Virus record (IMG/VR): IMGVR_UViG_3300042549_002866
Coordinates: 1 to 28,342 of that record
Reading direction: 5' to 3' (one strand)
DNA: 28,342 nt
DNA from: a virus
Below the pieces are notes generated by a model. That model ran no database searches, was not told where the DNA came from, and was given only the letters and a program-made list of their open reading frames with translations. This document shows positions 13,915-13,986 of the stretch, one piece after another (position 1 is the first letter of the stretch; each line of letters starts with the position of its first letter). A program made the translations under genes and the position numbers.

Positions 13915-13986
13915 ATGTGGACAAAACCATCAGCAACAGAAATGAGATTTGGCTTTGAAGTTACAATGTATGTAATGAATAAGTAA
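13915..13986 (+). CDS. pqqA: Coenzyme PQQ precursor peptide PqqA (phage-encoded)
   Basis: A 23-codon gene with a strong AGGAG (13904-13908) six bases before the ATG and tandem TAA stops. The peptide has the length and layout of bacterial PqqA: it begins MWTKPS, has an Arg at position 11, then GFEVTMY (13-19), and ends in NK. Glu15 and Tyr19 are at the positions that the radical SAM enzyme PqqE crosslinks to form the PQQ skeleton in Klebsiella-type PqqA. Pseudomonas-type PqqA peptides start MWTKP and contain GFEVTMY, so the match extends over most of the peptide. No pqqB, C, D or E is in the window, so host enzymes (PqqD chaperone, PqqE and the rest) would have to process it. PQQ is the cofactor of periplasmic methanol and glucose dehydrogenases. 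The gene is far below usual size cutoffs and easily missed. Confidence 0.85.
   Translation: [23 protein letters not shown]

Follow-up and report, generated by a model that had tools for sequence, protein, structure and literature searches.

Why would a T4-like phage keep, among its replication genes, a reading frame of 23 codons that resembles the precursor of a bacterial cofactor? The question is raised by positions 13915-13986 (plus strand) of the window, by which we mean the whole stretch of DNA analysed here, a 28,342-base virus contig from IMG/VR. Translation of these positions revealed a complete open reading frame, stop included, that encodes a 23-residue PqqA, the peptide from which PQQ is made. 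Barr and colleagues are said to have reported in 2016 that PqqE, together with PqqD, cross-links a glutamate and a tyrosine of PqqA. Once the cross-link is made, what remains of PqqA is cut away, and one PqqA is spent per PQQ.

The pqqA gene and its surroundings

Membership of the PqqA family was judged by a score above the curated cut-off, a conserved Glu-x-x-x-Tyr at the cross-linking positions and a length of ~22-29 residues, and all three were found in the window ORF. In profile searches, the ORF scored 43.3 bits with PF08042 (cut-off 21.1; E = 3e-11) and 40 bits with TIGR02107 (cut-off 20). Because a profile search of the whole record returned pqqA at E = 9e-12, and because the PqqA model yielded no match in 14 control genomes, the match is not attributable to chance. 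The earlier note had arrived at PqqA by reading the letters of the ORF; its description (23 residues, Glu15, Tyr19, an AGGAG six bases ahead of the start codon, and tandem stops, here two TAA codons at 13984-13989) was confirmed throughout, and the significant profile matches bear out the family assignment. The features of the locus are the following.

13215-13634, plus strand: regA, translational repressor, T4-like core gene and 5′ neighbour (phrog_242, E 1e-60)
13631-13816, plus strand: gene for a 61-residue protein, conserved between regA and pqqA and kept in relatives
13817-13989, plus strand: pqqA cassette, which occurs or is missing as one unit between the 61-residue gene and the hsp20 leader element (alignment of loci with and without pqqA)
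13833-13858, plus strand: predicted terminator-like hairpin, CTAATGA-ttt-TCATTAG with a run of T behind it, located after the 61-residue gene and before pqqA (folding)
13882-13895, plus strand: predicted leader hairpin, GTCCAACAATGGAC (folding)
13904-13908, plus strand: Shine-Dalgarno AGGAG, 6 nt 5′ of the start codon (sequence reading)
13915-13986, plus strand: pqqA, 23-residue PQQ precursor peptide (PF08042, TIGR02107; homologous genes in 120 or more phage contigs)
13957-13959, plus strand: Glu15 codon, one of the two residues cross-linked by PqqE (Glu in 108 of 108 distinct copies listed)
13969-13971, plus strand: Tyr19 codon, the other cross-linked residue (TAT in 56 and TAC in 52 of the distinct copies listed)
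13993-14120, plus strand: conserved structured RNA of 128 bases and five helices, between pqqA and hsp20 (covariance model)
14128-14634, plus strand: hsp20, small heat-shock protein, 3′ neighbour (PF00011 57.5 bits, phrog_432)

The neighbours of pqqA are T4-like core genes, namely those for the clamp (gp45), the clamp loader (gp44 and gp62), RegA, Hsp20, DNA polymerase, UvsX, helicase and gp46. Since the DNA polymerase shares only ~53% identity with those of the nearest named phages, which are mostly cyanophages, the window phage represents a separate T4-like branch. No PHROG or Pfam match was obtained for the 61-residue protein. Elsewhere within these 28 kb, the plus strand encodes three distinct proteins of the 2OG-Fe(II)-oxygenase or cupin-like kind (4636-5259, 22968-23474 and 26530-27891). 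One of them falls into the Tet/JBP class (PF12851 at 90 bits), a class that can act on modified DNA bases.

In the alignment, the terminator-like hairpin predicted ahead of pqqA is present in close relatives that carry the gene and missing where the cassette is missing, and the stem of the predicted leader hairpin was found again in several relatives with a variable loop. In the predicted fold of 13869-13907 (plus strand), the pqqA Shine-Dalgarno would be paired with TCCTAA at 13869-13874, a partner that is conserved in the relatives L264 and L265 and lost in more distant ones.

The structured RNA downstream of pqqA ends at the hsp20 Shine-Dalgarno in the loci inspected, and, of 100 related T4-like loci, 82 matched its covariance model. 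Both sides were changed in 21 of its 27 pairs, and 95.6% of cells pair (76% in shuffles and less than 49% in slid controls), counts that lean towards structure because the sequences had been aligned to fit the model; the 12-sequence seed alignment alone held 8 compensated pairs. An Rfam search of the region returned chance matches only and no family, and the hsp20 leaders of Melnitz and P-RSM4 gave no match to the RNA model. We regard 13993-14120 as a candidate for a new RNA that regulates phage hsp20 in cis. A 21-residue ORF at 14035-14100 was not accepted as a gene, as it lies inside this element.

Host type and distribution of phage pqqA

The window peptide shares its length of 23, its MWTKP start and its GFEVTMY core with Glu15 and Tyr19 with bacterial PqqA of the Methylophilaceae type, from whose common form it is one residue apart (S6A). 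This is the form of Methylophilaceae genomes (Methylotenera, Methylophilus, OM43), whereas Methylophaga and Methylococcales differ, and comparison with the host genomes showed that the peptide is not of the Pseudomonas or Klebsiella type, to which the earlier note had likened it. Unlike bacterial PqqA, the window copy is phage-encoded and stands alone between regA and hsp20, and pqqBCDE were not found in the window. Judged from the peptide type only, the most likely host is a Methylophilaceae methylotroph, which makes methanol rather than glucose oxidation the relevant process; of the two substrates that the earlier note had proposed, methanol is favoured over glucose.

The host genomes sampled belong to one family, that of a single-cell genome of OM43. 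In this sample, pqqA was found in 149 of 150 Methylophilaceae genomes, with a median of 4 copies and at least two copies in 140 of the 150. The highest numbers, of dispersed copies, were 12 (G037 and G119) and 10 (G011 and G132). Published work describes 3-12 pqqA in Methylophilaceae next to other pqq genes that are usually single-copy, and counts xoxF and PQQ biosynthesis among the core genes of the family (PMC4109929). PqqE scored above the cut-off in 56 of 60 Methylophilaceae genomes, so that the matching family does possess the enzyme on which use of a phage peptide would depend.

A tblastn search of 50,697 phage records revealed PqqA in nine genomes of Methylophilales phages, i.e. Venkman, P19250A, MEP301, MEP401, MEP402 and four Melnitz isolates, with further matches in one uncultured phage (Manatee Spring) and in two contigs labelled Acinetobacter phage. 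MEP431-434 and Venkman EXVC038S, known from taxonomy entries, were not in the match list and may be absent from the collection searched. Pseudomonas-type and Methylobacterium-type PqqA queries returned no further phages from the same 50,697 records. Both Acinetobacter phage MD-2021a records were excluded, being regarded as bacterial DNA under a wrong label. In CAKLQF020000010.1, the match is followed downstream by pqqB, pqqC, pqqD and a radical-SAM gene, with polyphosphate kinase and fur nearby, and the contig thus appears to be bacterial chromosome; CAKLQH020000055.1 was set aside on the record name that it shares with the former.

The copies of Venkman, P19250A, MEP301, MEP401/402 and Melnitz had 77-100% peptide identity to the window PqqA, the Venkman peptide being identical to it, but these cultured methylophages belong to other lineages and carry the gene elsewhere, next to recombination genes, a tRNA or further hypothetical genes. 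The pqqA position is free of any overlapping annotated gene in Venkman, P19250A, MEP301 and MEP402, and where a gene is annotated across it, as in Melnitz and in the spring phage, that gene runs on the opposite strand.

Among environmental viruses, a degenerate-pattern scan of IMG/VR revealed at least 120 contigs with pqqA. The matches listed, taken together with the cultured phages and the window, amounted to 124 copies, which comprised 108 different DNA sequences encoding 46 peptides, and all of these copies and peptides were 23 residues long. When contigs with at least two flanking proteins in common were joined, those listed formed ~15 gene-sharing groups, which indicates that pqqA is carried by many phage lineages.

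Gain, loss and selection

For comparison of the regA-hsp20 site, loci were chosen by RegA or Hsp20 similarity and not by PqqA. Of the 121 loci in which RegA is followed by Hsp20, 35 had pqqA between the two (one of them a remnant) and the other 86 lacked it. Its presence varied with RegA identity, from 12 of 14 loci at 95% or above to 9 of 41 at 90-95%, 13 of 46 at 80-90% and 1 of 20 below. The many relatives without pqqA, two of which have a 99% identical RegA, suggest that the gene is dispensable in some settings. A search of 20 pqqA-free records, some of more than 165 kb, found no pqqA elsewhere in the record. In the aligned pqqA-free relatives, the stop of the 61-residue gene almost abuts the hsp20 leader element, and this near-direct junction suggests that pqqA, its leader and the terminator-like hairpin move as one cassette. 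A comparison of L365 (1281-4877) with L364 further revealed that L365 has lost 57 nt, and with them the part of pqqA that holds Glu15 and Tyr19, with both flanks 99.8-100% identical, which on sequence grounds identifies L365 as a natural loss of pqqA by a fresh deletion.

The copies among the matches listed had a mean pS of 0.64, a pN of 0.105 and a pN/pS of 0.165, with a ratio of 0.27 at the 13 codons least fixed by the search pattern. The distinct syntenic copies, found without a PqqA query, gave 0.19. Judged by these ratios of 0.17-0.27, phage pqqA is under purifying selection. A second scan of IMG/VR, in which codons 15 and 19 were left free, returned Glu and Tyr in all matches listed, including 11 of 11 new contigs, and both residues were found in 16 of 16 distinct copies chosen by regA/hsp20. 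Glu15, Tyr19 and the frame, which the earlier note had singled out, are thus retained in related phages, one relative being a deleted remnant.

Proposed role and significance

The locus combines the marks of an auxiliary metabolic gene, i.e. phage-gene surroundings, a host-type peptide whose pathway is present in the (inferred) host family, and purifying selection. The ORF is most probably a functional phage pqqA of this kind, with which host PqqB-E would keep making PQQ for methanol dehydrogenase. Phage mRNA would yield PqqA peptide during infection, host PqqD would bind it and host PqqE would join Glu15 to Tyr19, after which the remaining host enzymes would free and oxidise the cross-linked product to PQQ. 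Once this PQQ is loaded into XoxF/Mxa methanol dehydrogenase, methanol oxidation, the host's energy source, would be sustained while the phage replicates. A phage that stops host gene expression would need to supply pqqA alone, because the peptide is spent one per PQQ and PqqB-E, being catalytic, would outlast the shut-off. Supply of pqqA only agrees with the host genomes, in which pqqA is the one pqq gene to have been amplified, and with several host copies already present the added phage dose may be modest. A paper cited in PMC9851590 is reported to have obtained 70-80% conversion of added PqqA peptide into PQQ with a cell-free extract.

Abundant phage PqqA might instead act as a decoy or inhibitor that keeps PqqD/PqqE occupied or titrates out the leader-binding site, and thereby lowers PQQ and redirects carbon or electrons to the benefit of the phage. 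In principle, the maturation enzymes could be blocked by an excess of their substrate peptide, and the ribosome-binding sites look strong, with AGGAG 6-8 nt 5′ of the gene in 81 of the 124 copies listed. However, a decoy would not need both reactive residues, yet these are invariant among the matches listed and in the syntenic copies, and hosts amplify pqqA to 2-12 copies, arguing that extra peptide is tolerated or useful; we consider such a role improbable. Still less probable, and strongly disfavoured, is that a host pqqA was acquired by chance and persists briefly as functionless cargo. The patchy presence at the fixed site and the deletion in L365, by which the gene can evidently be lost, would fit this, but the low pN/pS at near-saturated synonymous sites would not, nor would the uniform length of 46 of 46 peptides across ~15 phage gene-sharing groups among the matches listed, or the restriction of named phages with pqqA to those of PQQ-dependent Methylophilales hosts.

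Just as unlikely is a different role that happens to preserve the PqqA sequence, such as a PQQ-maturation-state signal regulating host genes or a substrate of a different radical-SAM enzyme. Some of the pqqA copies scattered over Methylophilaceae genomes may serve other duties, but no such role was found in the literature examined, and the conserved residues are those used by PqqE, itself detected in nearly all host genomes searched. A chance ORF or host contamination, suggested by the mere 72 bases of the ORF, is refuted by synteny, with T4-like core genes on both sides in one contig, independent contigs sharing the site and a score 20 bits above the cut-off.

As a kind of gene, phage pqqA is already known, since Coutinho et al. 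2020 found pqqA and methanol dehydrogenase in the Lake Baikal phage VP_266 (PMC7678222), a phage of a predicted methylotroph whose PqqA precursor was, as in the window, proposed to be an auxiliary metabolic gene. VP_266 differs in its methanol dehydrogenase gene, which was absent from all 50 other pqqA phage records searched, these being mostly fragments. This absence counts against the proposed role, as does the lack of pqqA in many relatives of the window phage. The view of the earlier note that no T4-like phage was known with pqqA was only partly right, with the 2020 publication of VP_266 and the unannotated copy of the T4-like Melnitz standing against it. A 2026 reservoir study counted viral pqqA, pqqD and pqqE as phosphorus-cycling genes, and the main text of the Melnitz, MEP301, MEP401/402 and Venkman papers (open-licence PMC text) does not name PqqA in phage. 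Lineage breadth and cultured isolates are not covered in the VP_266 report (PMC7678222). Set against the open-licence PMC literature, the presence of pqqA across isolated methylophages, its wide range of phage lineages and the site at which it is swapped appear to be new.

With a functional phage pqqA as the preferred reading, we lean, with some reserve, towards the broader view that pqqA is near-universal and overlooked in Methylophilaceae phages. Many unrelated lineages would have gained it because PqqA is the component of PQQ that is consumed one for one, and it could be swapped at a fixed site with host change. Cyanophage psbA (D1) is generally known as another phage-supplied, fastest-used component of host energy metabolism, although D1 is a protein subunit and PqqA a consumed cofactor precursor, and the two share no homology.

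Methylophilaceae (OM43, LD28) are important methanol oxidisers of the coastal sea and of lakes, and cultured virus-host pairs exist in Venkman, MEP301, MEP401/402, Melnitz and P19250A. In the phage collection searched, pqqA points to Methylophilales hosts and so offers a cheap host marker. If the phages of Methylophilaceae routinely supply PqqA, the energy drawn from methanol at the time of infection would hinge on a coding sequence of 69 bases, which gene callers throw out.
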